Of a stretch of 42,836 bases of DNA, positions 5,567 to 40,957 are shown in pieces. The position numbers and the translations under genes are program-made. The notes under the pieces are model-generated. The model was not told the origin of the DNA. It ran no database searches and saw only the letters and a list, made by a program, of their open reading frames with translations. Position 1 is the first letter of the stretch. Each line of letters begins with the position of its first letter. This DNA comes from Burkholderiales bacterium (lineage in GTDB: Bacteria > Pseudomonadota > Gammaproteobacteria > Burkholderiales > SG8-39). The stretch lies in contig JAOAEA010000032.1 of the NCBI GenBank assembly GCA_026417035.1, forward strand, positions 1 to 42,836, written 5' to 3'.

Positions 5567-6320
5567 GCATCGCCGCGAGCCGCGCCGCGTCGCGCGGCGC
5601 GTGGCCGGCATCGGTGTTGTCGAAATAGACGGCCACGTCCCGGCCCTCTGCGAGCCAGCGCCGGATGCGCGCCGCCCACCCGGCGAGCGCGGCGTCGGAG
5701 TAGGCGGACCAGTAGGTGGCGTCGTGCCCGTGCAGGCGCACGTAGGCGAGGTCGGTCGTCACCTCGTCCCAGCGGGGCCAGTCGGCGGCGTCGGAGATCA
5801 CGCTGGCGACGCGTCCACGCGCGAGGAGCTCAGCCACCTCGGGCGCGAACCACGACGCGTGGCGGAACTCGATCGCGTGGCGCGGGCCCCGCCACGCGGC
5901 GAGCGCGGCGACGAAACCGGCGAGGAGGTCGTCGTGGCGGTGCAGCCCGGCCGGGAGCTGCCACAGCACGGCGAAGAGCTTGTCACCGAGCCGTGAGGCG
6001 GCTGCGCGCTGGCGTGCGACCGGTTCCGCCGGGTCGTGGAGCTTGCGCACGTGGGTCACGTAGCGGCTGCCCTTCACCGCGAAGCGGAAGCCGGGCGGCG
6101 TCTGCTCGCGCCAGGCCGCGTAGGTCGAAGGCGCGAGCGAGTGGTAGAAGCTCGCGTTCACCTCGACCGAGTCGAAGAGGCTCGCGTAGTGCGCGAGCCA
6201 GCGCGCGCGCGGCACGCCCGCGTAGAGGCCGGCGCGCCAGCCTTCGTAGCTCCAGCCGCTCGTGCCGACGAGCGCGCGCGGCGGGCGGTGCGTGGGCCGG
6301 CCTGCCGGGCGCGGCGTCAC
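5475..6320 (-). CDS. DUF72 family TIM-barrel protein
   Basis: 281 residues from a GTG at 6320 whose last two bases overlap the TGA of the DUF302 gene (GTGA), indicating coupling. The family signature is clear: [11 protein letters not shown] near the N-terminus, then [30 protein letters not shown] and [17 protein letters not shown] near the end. DUF72 (YecE-like) proteins form a TIM barrel with no settled biochemical role. The last 30 or so residues are a low-complexity Arg/Ser/Pro tail encoded opposite the histidine kinase, so the natural stop has probably been lost and the tail added by read-through. It is the last gene of the long minus-strand train. Confidence 0.9.
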
Positions 6321-6706
6321 ACCGCGTTCATCACCTTCACGAGGCGGGCGCGCACCTCGGAGGCGATCTCGCGCACCTCGGGTCGGCCGACGAGGTCCAT
6401 CACCGCGCCCGGGTCCATGAACTCGACGTGGGTGGCGCCGTCGGCGTCCTGCCGTACGACGACGTTGCACGGCAACAGCGCCCCGATCTGCGGCTCGGCC
6501 GAGATCGCGCGGTTCGCGTAGCCGGGGTTGCAGGCGCCCAGGATGCGGTAGGGCGGCATGTCGCGGCCGAGCTTGTTCTTGAGCGTCCCCGCGACGTCGA
6601 TCTCGGTGAGGACGCCGAAGCCTTCGCCCGCGAGCGCGTCGGCGACGCGCCGGCAGGCCTCGTCGAAGGGGAGGTTCACGGTCTTGCCGAAGACGTAGTT
6701 GCCCAT
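6317..6706 (-). CDS. DUF302 domain protein
   Basis: 129 residues, one DUF302 domain across most of the chain (FDEACRRVADALAGEGFGVL; YRILGACNPGYANRAI; IGALLPCNVVVRQ). No signal peptide is seen, so it is probably cytoplasmic. The fold is known but no activity is established; Cys residues in ILGACNP and LLPCNV are positions often kept in the family. GGAG lies about nine bases upstream of the ATG. It is coupled to the downstream DUF72 gene by a GTGA overlap and separated from the upstream unknown gene by 79 bases. Confidence 0.9.
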   Translation of the reverse strand: MGNYVFGKTVNLPFDEACRRVADALAGEGFGVLTEIDVAGTLKNKLGRDMPPYRILGACNPGYANRAISAEPQIGALLPCNVVVRQDADGATHVEFMDPGAVMDLVGRPEVREIASEVRARLVKVMNAV

Positions 6707-6785
6707 GGCGGTCTGCTCCGTGTCCGGGGAGCGGATTCTGCCCGAGGCGCGCGACCGCGGCGAATCGAGCCTGCTGATGGCGGCC

Positions 6786-7334
6786 TCAGCCCTCGCGCCG
6801 GTAGTCGAGCGGCCAGCGGCCCGCGAGGAAGTCGAGCACCTGCAGGTCGAAGTCCTGGGTGCGCTCGACGCGCACGCCGTCGGCCGGCGCGAGCCGCCCG
6901 AGGCGCCTGGCGCGGATGTTGAGCGGCTTCACCGGGAGCTTCAGCGCGCGGTAGGCCTCGGCCTCGGCGCCGGCGTCCGGATCGGCGGCGAAGAAGAGCC
7001 ACTCGCGCGCGAAGAAATCCTGGATGCGGTCGAGCTCGCGCGCGGCGTCCTCGGGCAGCGGCGGCGGGGGATCGACGCGGTGAGCCTTCGGCCGCCCGTG
7101 CTCGAGCGTCACCGCGAGCCAATCGCCGTGCACGTCGTCGGCGGCGGAGAGGAAGGTCGCCGTCTCGGTGGCGCCGTAGAAGCCGTCGAGCCAGAAGTAG
7201 CGCGCGACGAAGCCCTCCCCGGCGGCGCCCGCGAACCATCCGGCGACGCTGTTGGCGACGGGGAAGTAGAACATCGCGACGAGCACGCCGCGCGCCTCGG
7301 GTTCGGCCGCGAGGTAAGCCCTGGGTTCGATCAT
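6786..7334 (-). CDS. Uncharacterised 182-residue protein downstream of the acyl carrier protein
   Basis: Not recognised. Visible features: a hydrophobic patch near residues 18-35 (LVAMFYFPVANSVAGWFAG), too short and polar to be a confident membrane span; an aromatic-rich stretch (YFWLDGFYGATETATF); an acidic middle (DPDAGAEAEAYRAL); and a basic C-terminal segment ending DFLAGRWPLDYRREG. The ATG at 7334 follows the ACP stop by 13 bases, so it is co-transcribed with the dehydrogenase genes. The close spacing suggests work on the ACP-bound or E2 product, but that is context only. Codon use matches the neighbours and shadow frames lack this continuity, so it is a real gene. Confidence 0.75.
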   Translation of the reverse strand: MIEPRAYLAAEPEARGVLVAMFYFPVANSVAGWFAGAAGEGFVARYFWLDGFYGATETATFLSAADDVHGDWLAVTLEHGRPKAHRVDPPPPLPEDAARELDRIQDFFAREWLFFAADPDAGAEAEAYRALKLPVKPLNIRARRLGRLAPADGVRVERTQDFDLQVLDFLAGRWPLDYRREG

Positions 7335-7347
7335 CGTCCGCTCCGCT

Positions 7348-7596
7348 TCAGCCCTTCGCCCGGCCGGCGAGGTACGCCACCAGGCTGTCGAGCGTGTACA
7401 GGTGCCGGTAGTCGGTCTCGGGGATGTCCACCCCGAAGGTCTTCGCCAGGCCGACCACGATGTTGAGGAAATCGACCGAGTCGATGTCGAGCTGGTCGCG
7501 CAGGCTCTTGTCCGGCGCGAGCTCGGCCGGTTCGAGCTCCGGCACCACCGCGGCGAGCACGCCCAGCGCTTTGGTCCTGATCTCTTCCTTGTTCAT
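7348..7596 (-). CDS. Acyl carrier protein
   Basis: 82-residue carrier protein. Ser40 in DIDSVDFLN is the phosphopantetheine attachment site (DSL-like motif with Val for Leu), followed by the helix [12 protein letters not shown] and the closing helix [12 protein letters not shown]. The start overlaps the E2 stop (ATGA), so it is translated with the dehydrogenase acyltransferase. It is not next to fab genes, so it is probably a dedicated carrier rather than the housekeeping AcpP. The cargo is unknown; the ligase at 11704-13452 or the E2 could supply acyl groups. Confidence 0.9.
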
Positions 7597-8816
7597 AGCT
7601 TCTCCGGTTCCTGCAGAAGTCTCGCGACCGCGTCGAGGTAGAGCGCGCCGCGGTGGCCATCGGTCGCGCGGTGATCGCCCGAGAGCGTGGCGGTGACCAC
7701 CGGGCGTACGACGACCGTGCCGTCCACCGCCCACGGCCGCTCCACGATCTTGCCGAAACCGACGAGCGCGAGCTGCGGCGGATAGATCACGCCGTAGACC
7801 GCTTCGACGCCGCGCTCGCCGAGGCTGGTGATGGTGCCTGTCGGGTCGGTCATCTCGGAGCTCTTCAGCGAGCCGGCGCGGGCGCGCGCGACGAGGTCGG
7901 TGAGCCGCTGCGAGAGCGCCGCCAGGGTGAGCTTGTCCGCGTCGTGGATCGCCGGCGCGACCAGGCCGCCGCCGCGCAGCGAGATCGCGATGCCCGCGTG
8001 GATCGATGCGCTCGCCTGCGCGCGGCCGTCGATCCAGAAGCCGTTCAACTCCGGCACCTCGCGCAGCGCGAGCGCGGCGGCCTTGACGAGCAGCACGCCG
8101 GCGAGCAGCCGCTCCGTGACCGGCAGCTTCGCGTTCGCTGTGGCGAGCCAGGCGAGCGCCCGCGACATGTCGATGGTGGTGCCGAGGTAGTAGTGCGGGA
8201 TCTCGCGCTTCGAGCGCGCCATCGCCGCGGCGATCGCGTCGCGCATCCGCTGGCGCTTGTCCGCGGCGGGAGCGGCCGGCGCTGCGGCGGGGCGCTCGCG
8301 CGCGGCGCGCTCGACGTCCTCGAGCGTGATGCGGCCGCCCGGGCCCGTGCCGCGAACCGATGCGAGATCGACGCCGAGTTCGCCCGCACGCTTGCGCGCG
8401 ATCGGCGAGACCGGGACGCGCTCGCCCCCGGCGGCCGGTGCCGCGGCCGGAAGCGGTGCGCGCGGTGGCGGCGCGCCCGGCGCCACGTCCGGAGGGGGCG
8501 GCTGCCGGGGCACGGTGACCGGCGCCGCCGCGGCGGGCGCTGCCGCGAACGCGGGCGGGGCGCCGGCCTCGGCGCCGGCTTCGGCCGCGATCACCGCGAG
8601 CGGCGTGCCCACGGGCAGCCAGTCGCCGCCGGGCTCGACGAGGATCTTCTCGAGCGTCCCGGCGACCCACGACTCGACGTCCACGTTGGCCTTGTCGGTT
8701 TCGACCACGGCGATCACCTCGCCGCGGGCGATGCGCTCGCCGGGCTTCTTCAGCCACTCGACCAGCCGGCCCCGCGTCATGTCGGCGCCGAGCTTGGGCA
8801 TCAGGAAGTCGGTCAT
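7593..8816 (-). CDS. Dihydrolipoamide acyltransferase (E2) of a 2-oxoacid/acetoin dehydrogenase complex
   Basis: 407 residues. N-terminal lipoyl domain at 1-78 with lipoylated Lys42 ([13 protein letters not shown]), an Ala/Pro-rich linker at about 80-135, a peripheral subunit-binding domain at about 136-175 ([25 protein letters not shown]) and a catalytic acyltransferase domain ending in the active-site DHRATDG with His382 and Asp386. It accepts the acyl group made by E1 and passes it to CoA. No E3 (dihydrolipoamide dehydrogenase) lies in the window; a housekeeping E3 would be shared. A 203-base gap separates it from E1 beta, while the downstream ACP overlaps by four bases. The substrate (pyruvate, acetoin or branched-chain oxoacid) is not decided by sequence alone. 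Confidence 0.92.
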
Positions 8817-13514: not shown

Positions 13515-13555
13515 ACGCTAGACCGGGGCCGGGCGGCGGCGTTGAGATAGATCAA
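13515..13555 (-). promoter_or_regulatory. FNR/ANR-like box with class II promoter for the ligase-E1-E2 operon
   Basis: TTGAG-ATAG-ATCAA at 13542-13555 matches the TTGAT-N4-ATCAA box with one mismatch on this strand; read on the minus strand it is TTGAT-CTAT-CTCAA. On the minus strand 21 bases separate it from TAGCGT (13520-13515), which keeps the TAnnnT skeleton of a -10 hexamer. This gives a box centred near -41 and a leader of about 55 bases before the ligase ATG. The same 21-base spacing recurs at three other boxes in the window. Confidence 0.7.
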
Positions 13556-29330: not shown

Positions 29331-29681
29331 GCGTCGCAGCCGGGCGACACCCGCGCCGCGGACCGCGAACGCGGTTGACCGGCATCAAAACGCGCCGGGC
29401 GCCCCGCCGCATACTGCCTGCCAAGAAAGGCCCGGAAGCGCCGCAGAAGCGGCGCGCGCGTTCGCGCGCTCGCGCGTCGTATGGAGAGCGCGCCCGCCGG
29501 GCGCACCGGGTTTGTGCAACGGGCGACGCGCCGCGATGCCGGTGGCGCGCGCATCCTCTGCGGCGATGAATACGCGGCCATGGCATTGCGATCGGGGCAC
29601 GAGTCGAGCCGGGTCATCCCGTTCGACCGGCCGAGGGCCGTGGACGGCCGCGCTGCGCCGCCGGCGCGCGCCGCGGGCGCC
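29331..29681. other. Leader region of the rtcA operon
   Basis: 351 bases. It contains an FNR-like box and -10 (29375-29415), then a hairpin GCGCCGC-AGAA-GCGGCGC at about 29437-29454 in the expected transcript. From ATG 29481 an open frame runs without a stop into rtcA, adding 67 residues (starts MESAPAGRTGFVQRATRR); no ribosome site precedes it and no family is recognised. It is either an N-terminal extension or untranslated leader. Confidence 0.55.
29375..29415 (+). promoter_or_regulatory. FNR/ANR-like box with class II promoter for the RNA-repair operon
   Basis: TTGAC-CGGC-ATCAA at 29375-29388 (one mismatch to TTGAT-N4-ATCAA), then 21 bases, then CATACT at 29410-29415 (four of six to TATAAT). 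Same spacing as the other three boxes. The start point would be near 29422, about 60 bases before ATG 29481 and 260 before ATG 29682. Confidence 0.6.
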
Positions 29682-30734
29682 ATGATGCTCGCGGCGCACG
29701 ACGTCGTCGAGATCGACGGCGCCCACGGCGAGGGCGGCGGCCAGCTCGTGCGCATCGCGGTCGCGCTCGCGGCGATCACCGGCACGCGCGTCCGCGTCAC
29801 GAACATCCGCGCGAAACGCGACAAGCCGGGCCTCGCCGCGCAGCACGTCGCGGCGATCCGCGCCGTGGCGGGGCTCTGCTCGGCGGAGGTGGAGGGGCTC
29901 GCCATCGGCGCCGAAGCGATCGGTTTCGCCCCGCGGCCGCTCGCGGGCGGAGAGTTCCGCTTCGATGTCGGCACCGCGGGCAGCGTCTCGCTCGTGGCGC
30001 AGGCGCTGCTGCCCGTGATGGTCGCCGCGAACGCGCCCTGCCGGGTGCACATCACCGGCGGGACCGACGTGCGCCAGGCGCCGCCGGTCGATTACCTCCG
30101 CCACGTGCTCTTCCCGCTCCTCGCGCACCTGGGCGTGCGCGCTTCGCTCGAGGTGGTGCGGCGCGGCTATTACCCGCGCGGTGGCGGCGAGGTCGCGCTC
30201 GCGGTCGCGCCGGCGACGCTGCGCCCGGCGATCTTCGGCGTACCCGGGGCCGAGCGCCGCGTGCGCGGCATCGCCCACGTCGCGAACCTCGACGAGCGGA
30301 TCGCGGCGCGCATGCGCAAGGGCGCGGTGGAGCGGCTCGCGCTCGCGGGCGTGCGCGACGCGGAGATCGAGACGCGTGTCCTCGGGCCGCTCGACGCCAA
30401 GGGGCAGGGCGGCGCGATCGTCCTCTGGGCACCCTCCGACGCCACGGTGCTCGGGGCGGCGCGGGTGGCCGAGCGCGGCGTCCGCGCCGAGGACCTCGGC
30501 CACGCCGTCGCGACCGAGCTCGCCGTGGACATCCTGAACGGCGCGGCGCTCGACGTGCACGCGGCCGACCAGGTGCTCCCGTACCTCGCGCTCGCCGGCG
30601 GCGGCGGCTTCACCACGCGCACCTTCTCGAGCCACGCGCACACCGCGAGCTGGCTCGTCGAGCGCTTCCTGCCGGTGCGCTGCGCGGTCGAGGAGCGTGG
30701 CGGCCTCGCGCGCGTGACCGTCGCCCCGCGCTGA
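29682..30734 (+). CDS. rtcA: RNA 3'-terminal phosphate cyclase
   Basis: 350 residues against about 338 for E. coli RtcA. It converts an RNA 3'-phosphate to a 2',3'-cyclic phosphate with ATP, through a covalent His-AMP. Close family similarity starts at residue 9: IDGAHGEGGGQLVRIAVAL, RDKPGLAAQH, TAGSVSLVAQ, ITGGTDVRQAPPVDYLRHV, GYYPRGGGEV. The catalytic His aligned with E. coli His309 is His318 in FSSHAHTASWLVERFLPVR. The start is ambiguous: ATG 29682 or 29685 fits the family, but neither has a Shine-Dalgarno and the frame is open back to 29481. First gene of a five-gene operon; the partner ligase RtcB and regulator RtcR are absent from the window. Confidence 0.93.
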   Translation: MMLAAHDVVEIDGAHGEGGGQLVRIAVALAAITGTRVRVTNIRAKRDKPGLAAQHVAAIRAVAGLCSAEVEGLAIGAEAIGFAPRPLAGGEFRFDVGTAGSVSLVAQALLPVMVAANAPCRVHITGGTDVRQAPPVDYLRHVLFPLLAHLGVRASLEVVRRGYYPRGGGEVALAVAPATLRPAIFGVPGAERRVRGIAHVANLDERIAARMRKGAVERLALAGVRDAEIETRVLGPLDAKGQGGAIVLWAPSDATVLGAARVAERGVRAEDLGHAVATELAVDILNGAALDVHAADQVLPYLALAGGGGFTTRTFSSHAHTASWLVERFLPVRCAVEERGGLARVTVAPR

Positions 30735-30770
30735 AGGGGCGGCCGACCTCCGGCGCCCCGCCGGCATCCG

Positions 30771-31040
30771 ATGATCCCGATCCGCACGGTGATCGACCGC
30801 ATCCGCTGGGATCCCGAGTTCGGGCGCGGCGAGTTCGTGCTCGGCTACTGGGATCGCGTCGCGAAGCGCATCGTGCGCGTCCCCTTGAGGCGGGTGAGCT
30901 TCGCGCCCGGCGAGCACTTCTGGTTCGAGGCGGTGGGGGAAGACGGCGCGGTGCACGAAGTGCCGTTGCACCGGGTGCGCGAAGTGTGGCGCGACGGCGA
31001 GCTCGTCTGGGAGCGGCGCGTGCCGGAGGACGCGCATTGA
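30771..31040 (+). CDS. MJ1316/DUF504 domain protein (predicted RNA cyclic-phosphate end recognition)
   Basis: 89 residues, a single small domain: IRTVIDRIRWDPEFGRGEFV, GYWDRVAKRIVRVPLRRV, then VHEVPLHRVREVWRDGELVW. This pattern (RI-WD start, GY-DR, closing P-HR--E-W--G--VW) is that of the former DUF504, named for MJ1316 and predicted to recognise RNA 2',3'-cyclic phosphate ends. Its position 36 bases after rtcA, whose product makes exactly such ends, supports the assignment. The stop overlaps the following TTG start (TTGA). Biochemical function is prediction from the family, not shown here. Confidence 0.82.
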   Translation: MIPIRTVIDRIRWDPEFGRGEFVLGYWDRVAKRIVRVPLRRVSFAPGEHFWFEAVGEDGAVHEVPLHRVREVWRDGELVWERRVPEDAH

Positions 31041-31933
31041 GCGAGGCGGCGGCGGCGCGCCTCGCCGGGCACGTCGCGAAGCTCGCGGGCGAGATCGGCG
31101 AGCGCCACGTGCGGCGGCCGCGGGCGCTCGCCGCCGCGGCGCGCTACATCGAGCGTGAGCTCGCGGCGCTCGGCTACGCGGTGCGGCGGCAGACCTACGA
31201 CGCCGGGGGCGTGCCCTCCTCGAACCTCGAGGTGGAGATCCCGGGAGCCGGGGCGGCCGGCGAGATCGTGCTCGCGGGTGCGCACTACGACACCGTGCCG
31301 GGCTCGCCCGGGGCCGACGACAACGCGAGCGGCGTCGCCGCGCTGATCGAGCTCGCGCGCGCGTTCACGGACCTGCGGCCTGCGCGCACGCTGCGCCTGG
31401 TCGCGTTCGTGAACGAGGAGCCGCCGTTCTTCTACTTCGGCGAGATGGGGAGCAAAGTGTATGCGCGCGCGGCGCGCGCGCGGGGCGATGACATCCGCGT
31501 GATGCTCTCCCTCGAGATGCTCGGCTGCTACTCCGACCGCCCCGGCAGCCAGGCGTATCCGCCGTTCCTGCGGTGGTTCTATCCCGACCGCGGCGACTTC
31601 ATCGGCTTCGTCTCGAACCTGCGCTCGCGCGGCGCGCTCGGGGCGCTGGCCCGGGCGTTCCGCGAGAGCTCGGATTTCCCGATGGAGCGCCTCGCCGCCC
31701 CGGCCCTGGTCCCGGGGGTCGCCCTGTCGGACCAGATTTCCTTCTGGAAACAGGGGTATCCGGCGGTGATGGTCACCGATACCGCGTTCTACCGCTACAG
31801 GCATTACCATCGGGCCACGGACACGCCGGAGCAGCTCGACTACGCCCGCATGGCGCGGGTGGTGGCGGGGCTCGCCGGGGCGCTGGCGCGCCTCGCCGGC
31901 GCGCACGGCTCGCTGGGAGGAGGAGATGGCTGA
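31037..31933 (+). CDS. M28-family zinc metallopeptidase
   Basis: 298 residues from TTG 31037, which overlaps the upstream stop (TTGA). Two-zinc M28 signature: LAGAHYDTVPGSPGADDNASG (first metal ligands, bridging Asp), FVNEEPPFFYF (catalytic Glu pair), LEMLGCYSD and, near the end, YRHYHRATDTPEQLDY (last His). No signal peptide or membrane span is visible, so it is cytosolic, unlike many secreted M28 aminopeptidases. It acts as an aminopeptidase or cyclase-like enzyme; the substrate is unknown. It sits inside the rtcA operon and overlaps the next gene by eight bases. Confidence 0.87.
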   Translation: MSEAAAARLAGHVAKLAGEIGERHVRRPRALAAAARYIERELAALGYAVRRQTYDAGGVPSSNLEVEIPGAGAAGEIVLAGAHYDTVPGSPGADDNASGVAALIELARAFTDLRPARTLRLVAFVNEEPPFFYFGEMGSKVYARAARARGDDIRVMLSLEMLGCYSDRPGSQAYPPFLRWFYPDRGDFIGFVSNLRSRGALGALARAFRESSDFPMERLAAPALVPGVALSDQISFWKQGYPAVMVTDTAFYRYRHYHRATDTPEQLDYARMARVVAGLAGALARLAGAHGSLGGGDG

Positions 31934-32651
31934 GAACGGAGAGATCGAGAACGAGATCCGCGCGGCGCTCGAGCACGGGGCGCGCCTCGACCCGCGCGCG
32001 TGGCCGCTGCGGGTCGAGGTGGCGGGGGCCAGGGTGACGCTCGAAGGCGAGGTCCCCGACATCGTCGCGAAGCGGCGCGCGGTCGAGGCGGCGGCGAAGG
32101 TGCCAGGGGTGAACGGCGTGGTCGACCGGCTGCGCCTGCGGCCGGTCGAGCGGCGCGGCGACGGCGAGATCGCGGCCTCGCTCGCGGAGCTCCTCACCGG
32201 CGACCGGGAGCTCGTCAATGTCACCGTGCGCAGGCTCGAGGGCGGAAAGGCGCACCTCCTGCACGACGCGGGCGCCGACGGCGCGGGCGCGATCGACTAC
32301 GAGGTGCGCGACGGGGTGGTGACGCTCACCGGCCGCGTGATCAGCCTCTCGCACAAGCGCATCGCCGGCGTGATGGCGTGGTGGGTGCCCGGGAGCGTCG
32401 AGGTGGTGAACGCGATCGAGGTCGTCCCCGCCGAGCAGGACAACGACGACGAGATCATCGACGCGCTGCGGCTCGTGCTCGAGACCGACCCGTTCGTGCC
32501 CGCGGACCAGATCCGCGTCTTCGCGCGCGACGGCGTGGTGCGCCTCGAGGGCTACGTGGCGAACGACCAGGACCGCGAGCTCGCCGAGCACGACGCCTGG
32601 TACACGCTCGGCGTGCGCGGCGTGGTGAACAACATCAAGGTCGCTTCCTGA
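31926..32651 (+). CDS. Triple BON-domain protein, cytoplasmic
   Basis: 241 residues arranged as three BON-like units at about 8-72, 80-165 and 172-240, each with the G-V-x-L-x-G-x-V core (ARVTLEGEVPD, GVVTLTGRVISLSHK, GVVRLEGYVANDQD) and a closing GVxxVVNxIxV strand. BON domains usually bind phospholipid or membrane and occur in periplasmic OsmY, but no signal peptide is visible (MAENGEIENEIRAALEHG), so this one is probably cytosolic. Starts inside the M28 gene (eight-base overlap), so it is translationally coupled. Function in an RNA-repair operon is not known. Confidence 0.85.
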   Translation: MAENGEIENEIRAALEHGARLDPRAWPLRVEVAGARVTLEGEVPDIVAKRRAVEAAAKVPGVNGVVDRLRLRPVERRGDGEIAASLAELLTGDRELVNVTVRRLEGGKAHLLHDAGADGAGAIDYEVRDGVVTLTGRVISLSHKRIAGVMAWWVPGSVEVVNAIEVVPAEQDNDDEIIDALRLVLETDPFVPADQIRVFARDGVVRLEGYVANDQDRELAEHDAWYTLGVRGVVNNIKVAS

Positions 32652-32667
32652 GCCGGGCGCGGACCCG

Positions 32668-33654
32668 ATGACGCGCGGCGCCCTCGCGCTCTTCGCGCTC
32701 GGCGCGACCCGGGCGTTCGGCGAAGCGGTCGCCGCGCGGCTCGGGCTCGCGCTCGCGCCGCACGAGGAGCGCGAGTTCGAGGACGGCGAGCACAAGGCGC
32801 GGCCGCTCGCGAGCGTGCGTGACGCCGACGCCTACGTGCTGCACGCCCTGCACGGGACGCCCGGGGCGGGCGCCGGCGACAAGCTCGTGCGCCTCGCGTT
32901 CTTCGCGCAGTGCCTCAAGGACGCCGGCGCGGCGCGCGTCACCGCCGTCGCGCCCTATCTTTGCTACGCGCGCAAGGACCGGCGGACGCAGCCGCGCGAC
33001 CCGGTGACGACGCGCTACGTGGCGCAGGTGCTCGAGGCCTGCGGCGCCGACCGCGTGGTGACCCTCGATGTCCACAACCTCGCCGCGTTCCAGAACGCGT
33101 TCCGCCGCGAGACGGTGCACCTCGAGGCGCGGCCGCTGTTCGTCGCGCATTTCGCCGGGCGCGTCGGCCGCGAGGCGCTGGTGGTCGTCTCCCCGGACGC
33201 CGGCGGCGTGAAGCGCGCCGAGCGCTTCCGCGCGAGCCTCGCGGCGGCGCTCGGCCGGCCGCTCGCGAACGCGTTCGTCGAGAAGTACCGCGAGCAGGGC
33301 GTCGTCTCGGGCGAGGCGGTGGTCGGCGACGTGCGGGGCAAGGCGGCGATCCTCCTCGACGACCTCGTCAGCACCGGCGGCACGCTGCTGCGCGCCGCCC
33401 GGGCGTGCCGCGCGCGCGGCGCGACCGCGGTGCACGCGGCCGCGACCCACGGCATCTTCTCCGCGAACGCCGCGGAGGTGATCGCGGACGCGGCGCTCGA
33501 CTCGATGGTGGTCACCAACTCCGTCACGCCGCTCGCGCTCGCGCCCGCGGCCTTCGGCGGGAAGCTCGTCGTCCTCGACGTCGCGCCGCTGGTCGCCGAC
33601 GCGATCCGCCGGCTGCACGAGGGCGGTTCGGTCGGCGAGCTCTACGGCGAGTGA
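32668..33654 (+). CDS. Divergent ribose-phosphate pyrophosphokinase (PRPP synthetase) paralogue
   Basis: 328 residues, two phosphoribosyltransferase folds. Recognisable Prs segments: REFEDGEHKARPL, APYLCYARKDRRTQPRDPVTTRYVA, TLDVHN, VVSPDAGGVKRAE and the PRPP loop ILLDDLVSTGGT. It makes PRPP from ribose-5-phosphate and ATP. It differs from housekeeping Prs in many positions and begins MTRGALALFALG instead of the usual start, so it is a paralogue. It ends the rtcA operon (16-base gap from the BON gene). Two phosphoribosyltransferases at 40310-41719 could use its product. Confidence 0.88.
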   Translation: MTRGALALFALGATRAFGEAVAARLGLALAPHEEREFEDGEHKARPLASVRDADAYVLHALHGTPGAGAGDKLVRLAFFAQCLKDAGAARVTAVAPYLCYARKDRRTQPRDPVTTRYVAQVLEACGADRVVTLDVHNLAAFQNAFRRETVHLEARPLFVAHFAGRVGREALVVVSPDAGGVKRAERFRASLAAALGRPLANAFVEKYREQGVVSGEAVVGDVRGKAAILLDDLVSTGGTLLRAARACRARGATAVHAAATHGIFSANAAEVIADAALDSMVVTNSVTPLALAPAAFGGKLVVLDVAPLVADAIRRLHEGGSVGELYGE

Positions 33655-36127: not shown

Positions 36128-36355
36128 TCACTCCTGGCCGCGGCGGAAGGCGGCGATGTCCCATTCGCCGGTGGCCTCGTCGTGACGCAGGATGTAGGTG
36201 TCGCCGTCGTCGGCGGCACAGCGGAAATGGCGCGTGCCGGGCGAGATCCAGCGATCGACGATGGCGTTCACGACGAGGCGGCGCTCGCCGAGCCAGAAGG
36301 CGCGCGGCTCCTGCTCGCCGCGGTGCCCCGCGTAGCATTCGACGCGAAGACCCAT
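36128..36355 (-). CDS. Small conserved protein of unknown function
   Basis: 75 residues, beginning MGLRVECYAGHRGEQEPRAF and carrying RLVVNAIVDRWISPG, then DDGDTYILRHDEATGEWDI. I recognise the pattern (VECY-G..R, DRW, DDG-TYILRHD) from a small beta-rich family of proteobacterial hypothetical proteins but cannot name it securely. No signal peptide or membrane span. A TAGACT -10-like hexamer (36367-36362) ends six bases before the ATG, so the message could be leaderless. Convergent with the hydrolase gene (10-base gap). Confidence 0.7.
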   Translation of the reverse strand: MGLRVECYAGHRGEQEPRAFWLGERRLVVNAIVDRWISPGTRHFRCAADDGDTYILRHDEATGEWDIAAFRRGQE

Positions 36356-36556: not shown

Positions 36557-37561
36557 ATGCGCCCGATCCTCGACGCACGTCTCGTCAACGACGCCTTCGG
36601 CGACCCGGGCGTCTACGTCGATTTCCGCTTCGAGAAGCGCGCGCTCGCGTTCGACCTCGGCGACAACGCCGCGCTCGCGCCGCGCCACCTGCTGCGCCTC
36701 ACCCACGTGTTCGTCTCGCACACGCACATGGACCACTTCATCGGCTTCGACCGGCTGGTGCGCATCTGCGTCGGGCGCCACGCGGGCATGCGGCTCTTCG
36801 GGCCGCCGGGATTCGTCGATCAGGTGGAGCGTCGGCTCAACTCCTACACCTGGGACCGGGTGGACCGCTACGACGTCGAGCTCGCGCTGACGGTGACGGA
36901 GGTGGACGAGCGCGGCGCCACCGCCAGCGCGCGCTTTCGCACGCGCACCGGGTTCGCGCGCGAGCCGCTGCCGGCGGGCATCGCGCCCGGCGGGCTCCTG
37001 GCCGACGAGGGGACCTTCCGCGTGCGCTGCGCGATGCTCGACCACCGCACGCCCTGCCTCGGCTTCGCGCTCGAGGAAAAGACGCACGTCAACGTCTGGA
37101 AGAACCGGCTCGAGGCGATGGGGCTCAAAGTCGGCCCCTGGGTCGGCGAGCTGAAGCGCGCGGCGCTCGCCGGCGCGCCCGGGGACACGCCGATCGAGGC
37201 GCGCTGGCGGGACGCCTCGGGGCAGGTGTCGCGCACGCTCGCGCTCGCGGAGCTCGAGGCCGCGCTCGAGTTCGTGCCCGGGCAGCGCATCGCCTACGTC
37301 ACCGACGTCGTCTTCCACGAGGCGAACGTCGCGCGCATCGTCGATCTCGCGCGCGACGCCGACCTCCTCTTCATCGAGAGCGTGTTCCTCGACGCCGACG
37401 GCGCGCACGCGGCGCAGAAGCAGCACCTCACCGCGCGCCAGGCGGGCACGATCGCGCGGCTCGCGGGCGCGCGCAACGTGGTGCCGTTCCACTTCTCGCC
37501 GCGCTACGCGGAGCGCGAGCAGGAGGTGCGCGCCGAGCTCGAGTCCGCCTGGCGCGGCTAG
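36557..37561 (+). CDS. RNase Z-like metallo-beta-lactamase-fold hydrolase
   Basis: 334 residues. Metal motif SHTHMDHF gives His55, His57, Asp59 and His60; later ligands fit MLDHRTPCLGF and the His of NVVPFHFSPRY. VTDVVFHEAN supplies the bridging Asp. RNase Z (ELAC) enzymes cut precursor tRNA 3' trailers; this protein keeps the general layout but its flexible-arm region is unlike the canonical enzyme, so an RNA phosphodiesterase role is inference. ATG 36557 fits the family start; a TAGGAT -10-like hexamer at 36522-36527 gives a short leader. An in-frame reading back to 36107 is rejected. A GCCGCGGGC/GCCCGCGGC hairpin lies at 36376-36399 upstream. Confidence 0.83.
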   Translation: MRPILDARLVNDAFGDPGVYVDFRFEKRALAFDLGDNAALAPRHLLRLTHVFVSHTHMDHFIGFDRLVRICVGRHAGMRLFGPPGFVDQVERRLNSYTWDRVDRYDVELALTVTEVDERGATASARFRTRTGFAREPLPAGIAPGGLLADEGTFRVRCAMLDHRTPCLGFALEEKTHVNVWKNRLEAMGLKVGPWVGELKRAALAGAPGDTPIEARWRDASGQVSRTLALAELEAALEFVPGQRIAYVTDVVFHEANVARIVDLARDADLLFIESVFLDADGAHAAQKQHLTARQAGTIARLAGARNVVPFHFSPRYAEREQEVRAELESAWRG

Positions 37562-37867: not shown

Positions 37868-38407
37868 TCAGCGCAGCTGGAGGAAAGGATACCGTGACCT
37901 GAGCGCGCGGGGGATGAGCATTACGCCGCACTCGCCCCCGAGCGTCTCGGCCGCGATCAGGAAATCCGGATCCTCGAGGGCCGTCCGCAGCAGCACCCCG
38001 CGCGCTTCCGCGAGCGCAGCAATGTGATCGGCCACTTCGCGCTCGATCCGCGGCGTATCGAGCGCTCCCGCCATGCCGCGGCGCTCCACCCGGACGCAGA
38101 ACGTGCCGCTCGCGAGGCGCTCGGCGAACGGCGCGACGGCCGCTTTGAGCTCGTCGGCGAACGACTCCGGGGTGAACGCAAAGGTCCGCTCGACCGGAAT
38201 GACGCGCCCGATCTCCCCGGCCCAGGGCTCGCCCGCCTCGCGCGCAGCCCGGATCGCCTCGAGAAACGCGACGGGATCCTCGACGCGCCCGGCGCAGACC
38301 CCTTTGAACGCCGTGCGATGGAAGCGGCCGAACCGGGCGAGCGCCCCGAGCGCGTCGCGCTCGTGATGCGGCCCGGGCGTGACGGTGACGATCGCGTTCC
38401 AGTCCAC
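37868..38407 (-). CDS. THUMP-domain protein (predicted RNA binding)
   Basis: 179 residues from GTG 38407. The C-terminal half carries the THUMP pattern: TFCVRVERRGMAGALDTPRI, EREVADHIAALAEARG, then DPDFLIAAETLGGECGVML and RYPFLQLR. THUMP domains bind tRNA or other structured RNA, commonly next to an acetyl- or methyltransferase or deaminase domain; here no catalytic domain is attached, as in TAN1-like adaptors. The start has no clear Shine-Dalgarno. An FNR-like box lies 58 bases upstream, shared with the divergent zinc-protein gene. Role as a specificity factor is inference. Confidence 0.8.
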   Translation of the reverse strand: MDWNAIVTVTPGPHHERDALGALARFGRFHRTAFKGVCAGRVEDPVAFLEAIRAAREAGEPWAGEIGRVIPVERTFAFTPESFADELKAAVAPFAERLASGTFCVRVERRGMAGALDTPRIEREVADHIAALAEARGVLLRTALEDPDFLIAAETLGGECGVMLIPRALRSRYPFLQLR

Positions 38408-38464
38408 GGCTCTCGCTCGGCGATGCGGGCGGGTTCAATGTCGTCTCCGCGCGGGGCGGGGTGT

Positions 38465-38505
38465 TTGATCTCCATCAATCCGGGGCCGGTCGCACGGCCT
38501 AGGCT
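38465..38505 (+). promoter_or_regulatory. Perfect FNR/ANR-like box with class II promoter
   Basis: TTGAT-CTCC-ATCAA at 38465-38478 matches the consensus with no mismatch. A 21-base spacer leads to TAGGCT at 38500-38505 (TAnnnT). Start point near 38512, leader about 52 bases before ATG 38564. On the other strand a weaker GACATT lies at comparable distance toward the THUMP gene, so activation could be bidirectional. Confidence 0.8.
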
Positions 38506-38563
38506 GGAATCAAGGCCCCGATTCTTCGCAAGCGATGGGGCGCATGTCCGCAAGGAGTCCCAC

Positions 38564-39061
38564 ATGAAAACGAACCGTGGCGGGTGGCGCATGCTCCGTC
38601 GCGAGCAGCTGATGGACACCGTCCGGCACGACCCGTACCAGGCGAAGGTGAAGCCGCCCGAGCCCACGCGCTGCCCGGGCTGCGGCGCGGTGTTCCAGAA
38701 AGGGCGCTGGACCTGGGGCACGGCCCCGGCGGGCGCGCACGAGGAGCTTTGCCCGGCCTGCCGGCGCATCCGTGAGAAACTGCCCGCGGGCTACGTGACC
38801 CTCGCCGGCGCTTTCCTGGCCGCGCACCGCGACGAGATCCTGAATCGGGTGCGCAGCGTCGAGGCGCGCGAGAAGGGCGAGCACCCGCTCGAGCGCATCG
38901 TCGCCGTGGCGGACCAGGGGGCCGAAGTGCTGGTGACGACGACCTCGGCGCACCTCGCGCGGGCGATCGGCGAGGCGCTCGAGGACGCCTGGAAGGGCGA
39001 GCTCGAGTACCACTACAACGACGAGGACAGCATGCTGCGCGTGCGCTGGGCGCGCGAATGA
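38564..39061 (+). CDS. BCAM0308-family zinc-ribbon protein
   Basis: 165 residues. MKTNRGGWRMLRREQLMDTV and the zinc ribbon RCPGCGAVFQKGRW with a second CPAC pair (EELCPACRRIREKL) define the BCAM0308-type family; a C-terminal domain (GAEVLVTTTSAHLARAIGEA, LEYHYNDEDSMLRVRW) resembles NMD3-like ribosome-associated modules. Function is not established. A strong AAGGAG ribosome site precedes the ATG. It is directly downstream of a perfect FNR-like box and 43 bases ahead of the hibernation-factor fusion, so the two are probably co-expressed under low oxygen. Confidence 0.85.
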   Translation: MKTNRGGWRMLRREQLMDTVRHDPYQAKVKPPEPTRCPGCGAVFQKGRWTWGTAPAGAHEELCPACRRIREKLPAGYVTLAGAFLAAHRDEILNRVRSVEAREKGEHPLERIVAVADQGAEVLVTTTSAHLARAIGEALEDAWKGELEYHYNDEDSMLRVRWARE

Positions 39062-39104
39062 GCGGGCGCGGCGCCCCGCGCGGCTGCCAGGCAAGGGGAC
39101 GAAG

Positions 39105-39650
39105 ATGCAACTGCCACTCCAGATCACCTATCGGCACATCGACCGCTCGGAGGCGCTCGACGCCGCCATCCGCGAGAAGGCCGCGAAGCTCTCCGAGTTC
39201 TACCCGAACATCACCAGCTGCCGCGTCACCGTCGAGGAGGAGCGGCTGCACAAGCACCAGGGTCACCTCTTCAGCGTGCACGTGGACGTGCGCATCCCGA
39301 ACCACGAGTTCATGGTGAAGCGCGACAAGCACGAGGACGTGTTCGTGGCGCTGCGCGACGCCTTCGACGCGGCGAAGCGCAAGCTCGAGGACGAGGTCCG
39401 GCTGCAGCGCGGCGACGTGAAGACGCACCCGGTCGAGAACCGCGGCCGCGTCGCGCGGATCATGCGCGACGCCGGCTACGGCTTCATCGAGACCGCCGAC
39501 GGGCGCGAGTTCTACTTCTCCGCCGACAACGTGGTGACCGCCGACTTCGACGCCATCGAGGTGGGCGCCGAGGCGCGGTTCATCGAGGACGTGGCCGGCG
39601 AGGGCCTGCAGGCGAAGCGCGTCTCGATCGTGAAGCGCCACGCGGCCTGA
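39105..39650 (+). CDS. HPF/RaiA ribosome hibernation factor fused to a cold-shock-type domain
   Basis: 181 residues. N-terminal HPF/RaiA domain at 1-100 (LQITYRHIDRSEALDAAIRE, VTVEEERLHKHQGHLFSVHV, DVFVALRDAFDAAKRKLE), which binds the 30S decoding centre and keeps ribosomes idle. C-terminal cold-shock-like OB domain at about 115-180 (GRVARIMRDAGYGFIETADG, FYFSADNVV), expected to bind RNA. This fused type differs from long HPF, whose C-terminus is a dimerisation domain. ATG follows AAGGGGACGAAG. Convergent with the next gene through a palindrome that contains both stop codons. Confidence 0.88.
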   Translation: MQLPLQITYRHIDRSEALDAAIREKAAKLSEFYPNITSCRVTVEEERLHKHQGHLFSVHVDVRIPNHEFMVKRDKHEDVFVALRDAFDAAKRKLEDEVRLQRGDVKTHPVENRGRVARIMRDAGYGFIETADGREFYFSADNVVTADFDAIEVGAEARFIEDVAGEGLQAKRVSIVKRHAA

Positions 39651-39664: not shown

Positions 39665-40313
39665 GCCGCGCGCCGGCGAGGTGCCGGGTGAACCAGGCGG
39701 CCGCGAGCCGCGCGACCTCTTCGAGCGTGCCCGGCTCCTCGAAGAGATGGGTCGCGCCGGGAACGATGGCCAGTTCCTTCGCGCACGCGAGCCGGGCGTG
39801 CGCGGCCTCGTTGAGCTCGATCACGCCGTAGTCCTCGCCGCCGACGATGAGGAGCGTCGGCGCGCGCACCCTGGCGAGCGCCTCGGCGCCGGCGAGGTCC
39901 GGCCGCCCGCCGCGCGAAACCACCGCGCCGATCTCCCCGGGCAGCGCCGCCGCGACCTGCAGCGCCGCCGCCGCGCCGGTACTCGCGCCGAAGAGCCCGA
40001 ACGGCAGCGTCCCGGCCATCGTGTCGCCGCGCAGCCAGCGCACGGCGTCCGCGAGCCGCTCCGTGAGCAGGGCGATGTCGAAACGCGTGCGGTAGGCGCG
40101 GTCCTCCTCGGCGGTGAGCAGGTCCATGAGGAGCGTCGCGAGCCCGGCGGCGCGCAGCTCGCCGGCGACGAAGTTGTTGCGCGGCGAGAGGCGCGAGGAG
40201 CCGCTGCCGTGCGCGAAGAGCACGACGCCCGATGCCGCGGGCGGCGCTTCGAGCATCCCTTCGAGGCGCGCGTGGCCGGAGGGGATGTGGACGAGCCGGC
40301 TCGCGGCGCTCAT
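39657..40313 (-). CDS. Dienelactone-hydrolase-like alpha/beta hydrolase
   Basis: 218 residues. Nucleophile box FGLFGASTGAAAAL (Ser in GAST), acid Asp in LIVGGEDYGVIELN and His in PGATHLFEE complete a triad. The N-terminal HAHGSGSSRLSPRNN-like stretch (FAHGSGSSRLSPRNN) is typical of the stand-alone members found beside phosphoribosyltransferases. The start overlaps the stop of that upstream gene (ATGA). The substrate is unknown; the name describes fold only. Confidence 0.85.
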   Translation of the reverse strand: MSAASRLVHIPSGHARLEGMLEAPPAASGVVLFAHGSGSSRLSPRNNFVAGELRAAGLATLLMDLLTAEEDRAYRTRFDIALLTERLADAVRWLRGDTMAGTLPFGLFGASTGAAAALQVAAALPGEIGAVVSRGGRPDLAGAEALARVRAPTLLIVGGEDYGVIELNEAAHARLACAKELAIVPGATHLFEEPGTLEEVARLAAAWFTRHLAGARPA

Positions 40314-40957
40314 TGCGCGCCCTTCCCGCCCGCGCCCGGCTTCGCCAGCAGCGCGATCACCTCGTCGTCCTCGACCTGCCGGAACTCGGCGTAGAACTGC
40401 CCCACGGCGTAGAAGGGTTCCGGCGCCTCGAGGCAGACGACCTCGTCGGCGTAGGGGCGCACTGTTGCGAGGCTGTCGGGCGCGGCCACGGGCACGGCGC
40501 AGACGAGCTTCGCCGGCTTCCTCGCGCGCACCGCGTGCAGCGCCGCGATCATGGTCGCGCCGGTCGCGAGCCCGTCGTCCACCACGATGGCGATACGCCC
40601 GGCGGGGTCGATCGGCGGCCGCGCGGGCGTGTACTCACGGCGGCGGCGCTGCAGCGTGTCGAGCTGCACCGCCTTCTCGCGTTCGAGGTAGCGGTCGTCG
40701 GCGCCGGCGCTCGCCGCGTGCGGAGCGATGTAGGCCCAGCCGGTCTCGTCCATCGCGCCGACGGCGAACTCGGGCGAGAACGGCGAGCGCAGCTTGCGCA
40801 CCAGGACGACGTCGAGCTCGCCGCCGAGCCGGTCGGCGAGCACGCGGCCCATCTCGACCGCGCCGCGCGGGATGGCGAGCACCAGCGGGTTCTGGCCTTT
40901 GTAGCGGGCGAGCGCTGCGGCGAGCCGCTCGGCGGCATCGATGCGGTTGCGGAACAT
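40310..40957 (-). CDS. Type I phosphoribosyltransferase
   Basis: 215 residues. PRPP-binding loop AIVVDDGLATGATM, with LAIPRGAVEMGRVLADRLG and DVVLVRKLRSPFSPEFAVGA typical of the phosphoribosyltransferases that accompany dienelactone-hydrolase-like genes, where the two are sometimes fused. The acceptor base is unknown. ATG 40957 is the first in frame. Coupled to the hydrolase by a four-base overlap; 195 bases of repeat-rich DNA separate it from the PyrR-like gene upstream. Confidence 0.87.
   Translation of the reverse strand: MFRNRIDAAERLAAALARYKGQNPLVLAIPRGAVEMGRVLADRLGGELDVVLVRKLRSPFSPEFAVGAMDETGWAYIAPHAASAGADDRYLEREKAVQLDTLQRRRREYTPARPPIDPAGRIAIVVDDGLATGATMIAALHAVRARKPAKLVCAVPVAAPDSLATVRPYADEVVCLEAPEPFYAVGQFYAEFRQVEDDEVIALLAKPGAGGKGAQ

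Follow-up and report, generated by a model that had tools for sequence, protein, structure and literature searches.

How does a bacterium come to carry the RNA cyclase gene rtcA at the head of a tightly packed block of five genes, apart from rtcB, and which of its neighbours belong with it to RNA repair? Most of what is known about RNA repair in bacteria comes from the RtcR-controlled rtcBA operon of enterobacteria. The block considered here lies in a stretch of 42,836 nucleotides, referred to as the window (positions 1 to 42,836 of the forward strand of contig JAOAEA010000032.1, assembly GCA_026417035.1), from an uncultured Burkholderiales bacterium (SG8-39) with a genome of 3.77 Mb and an assembly that is 89.6% complete, about 10% of the genome being missing. 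It encodes RtcA, a small MJ1316 protein, an M28-family peptidase, a triple-BON protein and a divergent ribose-phosphate pyrophosphokinase (Prs). We find that rtcA, MJ1316 and M28 are a genuine set of three genes that recurs elsewhere, whereas the two genes that follow them are less conserved. These three genes probably form one repair module that would work with archease and RtcB encoded on another contig, the BON and Prs genes being additions made locally. The block is likely to represent an RtcR-independent RNA-repair pathway, probably tied to ribosome storage.

A three-gene module and its probable partners

The five genes are all present and intact on the forward strand at 29682-33654, packed as closely as a previous reading of the sequence without database searches (the sequence-only reading) had described. 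The computed junctions are a 36-base gap between rtcA and MJ1316, overlaps of 4 bases between MJ1316 and M28 and of 8 bases between M28 and BON, and a 16-base gap between BON and Prs. That reading had let the block begin at 29375, which is the position of an FNR/Dnr-type box, TTGACCGGCATCAA (29375..29388, forward strand; one mismatch to TTGAT-N4-ATCAA); rtcA itself starts about 307 bases past it. The rtcA gene (29682..30734; 350 amino acids) matches PF01137 with 254.9 bits (cut-off 27) and the RTC insert, PF05189, with 61.8 bits (cut-off 23). His318 of its product aligns with His328 of chain 3kgd, and the catalytic histidine of E. coli is retained. The catalytic mutant of E. coli RtcA is H308A (PMC5175333), and we read His328 of 3kgd and H308 as one residue, with a 20-residue offset from a tag.

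The MJ1316 protein (30771..31040; 89 amino acids; PF04457 with 82.5 bits, cut-off 26.3), predicted to recognise cyclic RNA ends, is the sole copy detected in the source assembly. It has the family core H-x-VP-x-HR-x-R, and the invariant and near-invariant columns of the family were identified in an alignment. The M28 gene (31037..31933; 298 amino acids; PF04389 with 99.5 bits) has a TTG start that overlaps the MJ1316 stop. The H, D, EE and D/E positions of the peptidase align with those of 1cp7, a Streptomyces aminopeptidase, and are presumably metal ligands, the last His having been placed by reading the sequence. The two genes at the end encode the triple-BON protein (31926..32651; 241 amino acids; three PF04972 stretches), OsmY being another BON protein, and Prs (32668..33654; TIGR01251 with 248.7 bits, cut-off 113). 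A second Prs, 35% identical to that of the window, is encoded elsewhere in the source genome.

RtcA makes 2',3'-cyclic phosphate RNA ends (PMC7790460), and MJ1316 has been described as a recogniser of cyclic ends (PMC6514570, resting on Burroughs and Aravind 2016). That rtcA and MJ1316 belong together as a coherent pair is borne out by their adjoining in many lineages and by strong co-occurrence. Co-occurrence was assessed in 369 genomes sampled from the class, with Fisher tests on 368 of them (source genome excluded) that are uncorrected for kinship. MJ1316 was matched over cut-off in 20 of the 369 genomes, and RtcA was found in 38; outside the source genome, RtcA accompanies MJ1316 in 14/19 genomes and occurs in 23/349 others (p 7e-12). 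RtcB was matched at E 0.001 in 128/369 genomes (127 over cut-off), with scores that form two groups. The long type, defined by a score of more than 540 bits (such matches span the whole model, and the proteins are about 480 amino acids where seen), is found in 72 genomes. It is present in 18/19 MJ1316 genomes compared with 53/349 others (p 3e-13), G337 (75% complete) alone being without it, and short-only RtcB is present in 0/19 and 56/349, respectively (p 0.09). Among genomes with RtcA, MJ1316 occurs in 13/25 that have long RtcB and in 1/12 that do not (p 0.013).

Gene neighbourhoods were compared by scanning genome contigs with an alignment of 37 MJ1316 proteins and taking the best 80 of 83 loci, which represent 78 genomes by record name. 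Neighbour counts are lower bounds because contig ends cut many flanks, and they count related species separately (seven Nitrosomonas for M28, five loci of one gene order for the hibernation gene discussed below). RtcA is encoded within 5 kb of MJ1316 in 22/80 loci, near full length in 17 and short, cut or masked in the others (L031, L039, L042, L056, L060); it lies upstream on the same strand in 19 loci, downstream on the same strand in two and upstream on the opposite strand in one. RtcB and archease are found within the same distance in 4/80 loci (L064, L082, L085, L099), CBS proteins in 12/80 and Prim-Pol proteins in 5/80, one of them a fusion. At L054:10001-10963 (= L186:8926, G392), an MJ1316 domain shares its reading frame with a Prim-Pol/PriCT-type region that lacks its first part, and separate Prim-Pol genes occur near MJ1316 or RtcA in L022, L023, L025, L029, L112 and L123. 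Literature searches found no work joining MJ1316 with RtcA, or DUF504 with RNA repair, and among the papers listed for RtcA and RtcB none named peptidase M28; some of these operons may have been described earlier, in Burroughs and Aravind 2016 or in subscription papers.

The sequence-only reading saw no link to RNA repair in the peptidase, BON and Prs genes. For M28 this no longer holds, since gene arrangements and co-occurrence link it, though many M28 relatives stand alone. M28 lies within 5 kb of MJ1316 in 10/80 loci, directly after it in seven Nitrosomonas loci and in L026 and nearby in L042 and L072. Of the seven Nitrosomonas loci, six have the order rtcA-MJ1316-M28 (the rtcA of L039 is a fragment), and MJ1316-M28 lacking rtcA occurs in two further lineages. 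Nitrosomonas communis carries the three-gene order, and Methylobacter tundripaludum has rtcA-MJ1316. The window peptidase shares 67-73% identity with those encoded close to MJ1316 in L026, L042 and the seven Nitrosomonas loci. Another relative directly follows MJ1316 in G411 (L184), and in G132 one heads an M28-archease-RtcB arrangement (L107) about 12 kb from rtcA-MJ1316 (L108). M28 relatives were detected at E 1e-20 in 48 genomes of the class sample; RtcA is present in 14/47 of these compared with 23/321 others (p 3e-5), and long RtcB in 21/47 compared with 50/321 (p 1.6e-5), while short-only RtcB does not co-occur with M28 in this sample (p 0.67). A tree built from 36 M28 proteins places 13/13 linked rows inside one 20-row clade, and 0/16 of the remaining rows are linked, the linked label needing four changes. 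M28 is a candidate new component of RNA repair and may be an unrecognised partner.

RtcB, together with archease, ligates RNA ends that bear a cyclic or 3' phosphate to 5'-OH ends (PMC3973293). It had been called absent, which is right for the window and wrong for the genome, where archease, rtcB, HPF and groEL genes lie in this order on another contig. In that locus (L105) archease (6084-6503; PF01951 with 112.8 bits) directly precedes RtcB (6573-8006; PF01139 with 556.3 bits), with HPF and GroEL following. The source genome has a single rtcB, of the long type (contig C134), and a single rtcA (contig C173), which do not adjoin, being on separate contigs. RtcR, also called absent, gave no match in the source genome at 89.6% completeness. 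None of the 20 MJ1316 genomes has RtcR over cut-off; there is one weak sub-cut-off match, in G122, and the E. coli control was detected. A DNA polymerase X gene (HHH, thumb and PHP domains) adjoins archease-RtcB in L085, L183, L199 and L200 and is nearby in L107 and L111.

The probable link to ribosome storage comes from HPF, an HPF/RaiA-type ribosome hibernation protein, which is also encoded in the window (39105..39650, forward strand; a C-terminal cold-shock match is below cut-off). All 20 MJ1316 genomes carry HPF (48 genes). With the source genome excluded, 6/46 HPF genes are located no more than 10 kb from MJ1316, RtcA or RtcB, compared with 0.70 expected (p 9e-5), and 4/46 lie within 2 kb, compared with 0.17 expected (p 3e-5). 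HPF is found within 5 kb of MJ1316 in 13/80 loci, five of which (L027, L033, L036, L041, L044) share one gene order. As a control, 40 random 20-kb stretches from seven MJ1316 genomes (two overlapping; 729 genes) contained HPF, PCMT, CheR-like, DJ-1-like, MOSC and APH-AAA genes once each, and none for CBS, Prim-Pol, PolX, M28 or a small conserved protein of the window here called c8. Gene counts from the core repair loci set beside this control were not used as evidence, some of these loci having been selected for a nearby HPF gene. Ribosome fractions of E. coli without RtcB have been reported to contain less 16S rRNA (PMC5175333). A wider link between RtcB and hibernation is already known, because the neighbours reported for the Balon gene include RaiA, OsmY and RtcB (PMC10901736). 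Literature searches, with most subscription papers outside their coverage, turned up nothing that links hibernation with RtcA and MJ1316.

Competing explanations for the block

If the three genes do act with archease-RtcB, the substrates would be tRNA or rRNA broken during translation shutdown. MJ1316 may hold the cyclic end or hand it to RtcA or RtcB, occupying the place that the CARF sensor has in RtcR-type systems, and the M28 peptidase may remove peptides left from aborted translation. A Dnr/NnrR- or FNR-type regulator would turn the operon on at low oxygen or under nitrosative stress. A bolder version would make MJ1316 the cyclic-phosphate receptor of a second, RtcR-less bacterial pathway, in which ends made or reset by RtcA pass to archease-RtcB, M28 clears the stalled peptide, and hibernating ribosomes and tRNAs are mended before regrowth; as a whole, this version is doubtful.

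Several observations weigh against one repair module. RtcA is missing from 5/20 MJ1316 genomes (G021, G082, G099, G126, G249). MJ1316 occurs in 4/31 genomes of the source family, the source counted, and the only other genome of the genus, 76% complete, gave no match. Its settings in the four family genomes differ, being rtcA-MJ1316-M28 in the source, MJ1316-archease-RtcB in G371, an MJ1316-Prim-Pol fusion by a chaperonin gene in G392 and no such partners in G383, and the MJ1316 set looks like a cassette that has been gained, lost and reshuffled. No relative of MJ1316 with a solved structure was found by sequence. On the M28 tree the 20-row clade has support of 88/96 and is drawn open. Of the 13 linked rows, 11 (the window among them) entered via MJ1316 searches and so were linked by selection. 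The unbiased linkage rate for M28 is 2/24: 27 M28 regions were annotated, three are without a labelled M28, and in the remaining 24 a core repair gene lies no more than 5 kb from M28 only in L107 and L158. In L158 the neighbours of the M28 gene look, by eye, like hydrogenase maturation genes. Among the 80 MJ1316 loci, a triple-BON gene is found in one (L023, 3 kb off) and Prs in none, so neither was retained as a member of the system. The FNR-type box was likewise rejected as a general site of MJ1316 operons, standing at 4/70 operon heads (L036, L052, L070 and the window) compared with 0.5 expected, a weak signal.

The comparison of rtcA-MJ1316 neighbours across genomes, proposed by the sequence-only reading, has a divided outcome: M28 recurs, and BON and Prs do not. 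A conserved system of five genes is not supported, because neither BON nor Prs keeps its place beside MJ1316. Both are likely local additions behind the three-gene head, and the triple-BON gene is likely a local passenger or a stress-island gene. An order of archease, RtcB, Prs-like and phosphoribosyltransferase genes occurs at L158:10173-13644 and L174:4141-7559, the Prs-like proteins being 29-32% identical to the window Prs. The window encodes a phosphoribosyltransferase (40310..40957, reverse strand) that is 63% identical to those ending this order. This arrangement hints at a nucleotide link, but the Prs-like gene is not an orthologous Prs.

It is conceivable, though we think it rather unlikely, that rtcA-MJ1316 is a real pair and that the other three genes belong to the general stress genes collected in a low-oxygen or dormancy island, with no step in RNA repair. 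The window does hold glycogen genes and genes for HPF, CBS, DUF72, NMD3-like and PhaC-like proteins, and relatives of HPF, CBS, DUF72, NMD3-like, RNase Z-like and c8 proteins lie near MJ1316, RtcA or RtcB elsewhere; BON and Prs are not conserved by MJ1316, and 22/24 M28 relatives in the M28-based sample are unlinked. Against this explanation, M28 directly follows MJ1316 beyond Nitrosomonas, in L026 and G411, stands ahead of archease-RtcB in G132, and co-occurs genome-wide with RtcA and long RtcB. Ligation might instead be left out altogether, with RtcA capping 3' ends as cyclic phosphates and MJ1316 holding these ends against 3' exonucleases or signalling damage. The placing of RtcA and MJ1316 on a different contig from RtcB in the source is consistent with this, as are the HPF ribosome-storage genes nearby and the report that 2',3'-cyclic ends are not substrates of PNPase (PMC7790460). 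Long RtcB in 18/19 MJ1316 genomes and archease-RtcB by MJ1316 in 4/80 loci argue for ligation, and end protection without it is unlikely.

The M28 enzyme itself could act on RNA-linked peptide, hydrolysing the peptidyl or aminoacyl esters of broken tRNA and so freeing these ends for RtcA and RtcB, a part like that proposed for PrfH beside RtcB in other bacteria. M28 enzymes resemble peptidyl-tRNA hydrolase in fold, and the first metal-ligand positions of the window protein look kept compared with the Streptomyces aminopeptidase. The proposal for PrfH and RtcB also unites peptide release with RNA repair (PMC6514570). Set against this, the sequence relatives that have solved structures are mostly named aminopeptidases; we regard the idea as improbable. 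The reading of rtcA, MJ1316 and M28 as one module acting with archease-RtcB remains the one we favour.

Control of the operon and the surrounding genes

An FNR-like box with class II -10 spacing had been placed at the head of the block. The box is present, with its one mismatch, and a putative -10-like hexamer, CATACT (29410..29415, forward strand), recognised by eye, has class II-like spacing from it. Boxes with zero or one mismatch occur at four positions of the window (214, 13542, 29375 and 38465), compared with 0.1 expected from 20 simulated first-order Markov windows. The box at 38465..38478 (forward strand), TTGATCTCCATCAA, is perfect; it lies 99 bases before the gene for an NMD3-like protein, which the HPF gene follows, and sits between the THUMP gene and the NMD3-like/HPF genes (37868-39650). 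A one-mismatch box at 13542-13555 precedes a glycogen (carbohydrate) phosphorylase gene, and glycogen use may therefore share the same control. At the archease-RtcB-HPF-GroEL locus, the nearest box is between HPF and groEL, not ahead of archease.

Candidate regulators were sought among HTH_Crp_2 proteins. An FNR-type cysteine motif (C-x2-C-x5-C type) was found in 0 of the 7 matches in the 89.6%-complete source assembly. One of the seven is below cut-off and GntR-like, and another protein, L246, carries its cysteines in a cluster of another kind, far upstream within the open frame and probably ahead of the start. Control by FNR itself is unsupported by this assembly, from which about 10% of the genome is missing: no protein with the FNR cysteines was found in it, and the box is not general. 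Two proteins (L243, L245), which we take to be of Dnr/NnrR type by their E-x-x-S-R recognition helix, could be the readers of the box, and control of the operon by a Dnr-type regulator that responds to low oxygen or nitric oxide is no less probable than control by FNR.

Other genes of the window have relatives near MJ1316. The NMD3-like gene (38564..39061, forward strand) is below the Pfam cut-off, its relative in L025 being above it, and relatives lie within 5 kb of MJ1316 in 4/80 loci; a THUMP-domain gene (37868..38407, reverse strand) diverges from it. The window also encodes an RNase Z-like metallo-hydrolase of PRK02126 type (36557..37561, forward strand), relatives of which immediately precede MJ1316 in three Geobacter-type loci (3/80). 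The gene for c8 (36128..36355, reverse strand) has no Pfam match and has relatives within 5 kb of MJ1316 in 8/80 loci; c8 is a candidate partner.

Relation to known repair systems

RtcA and MJ1316 are known families, and the locus shares parts with several described systems. As in the rtcBA operons of E. coli and Salmonella, which depend on RtcR and sigma-54, a cyclase of the RtcA family is present and end repair would involve RtcB; here, in contrast, rtcA lies apart from rtcB, RtcB is of the long, archease-linked type, RtcR was not found in the source genome, and MJ1316 and M28 are added. The archease-RtcB operon (Desai et al., 2014; PMC3973293) has its counterpart in the second locus of the source, where archease adjoins long-type RtcB, but this locus is trailed by HPF and GroEL and is accompanied by a separate rtcA-MJ1316-M28 locus. 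The window protein is a member of the MJ1316/DUF504 cyclic-end domain family (PF04457), for which end recognition is a family prediction. It is a free-standing protein of 89 amino acids in an operon with rtcA and M28, whereas the available part of PMC6514570 speaks of eukaryotic fusions.

The Balon neighbourhoods (PMC10901736) are alike in their genes for RaiA/HPF, a BON protein and RtcB. Here HPF goes with RtcA, MJ1316 and archease-RtcB, and no Balon gene was found among the window proteins scanned, which are part of the 41 called. In the PrfH-RtcB system (PMC6514570, PMC9223846), too, RNA repair goes together with a hydrolase whose proposed targets are products of translation. That hydrolase is a release factor and the one here an M28 peptidase, so that the parallel is a putative one.

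Compared with the rtcBA operon of enterobacteria, the genes described here point to a bacterial RNA-repair system of different make-up, with RtcA, MJ1316 and archease-type RtcB, and with RtcR not found, whose carriers belong to many families of the class. The small MJ1316 protein gains a bacterial setting for its predicted end-binding, and the M28 peptidase and HPF become candidate partners, which would tie RNA repair to stored ribosomes.

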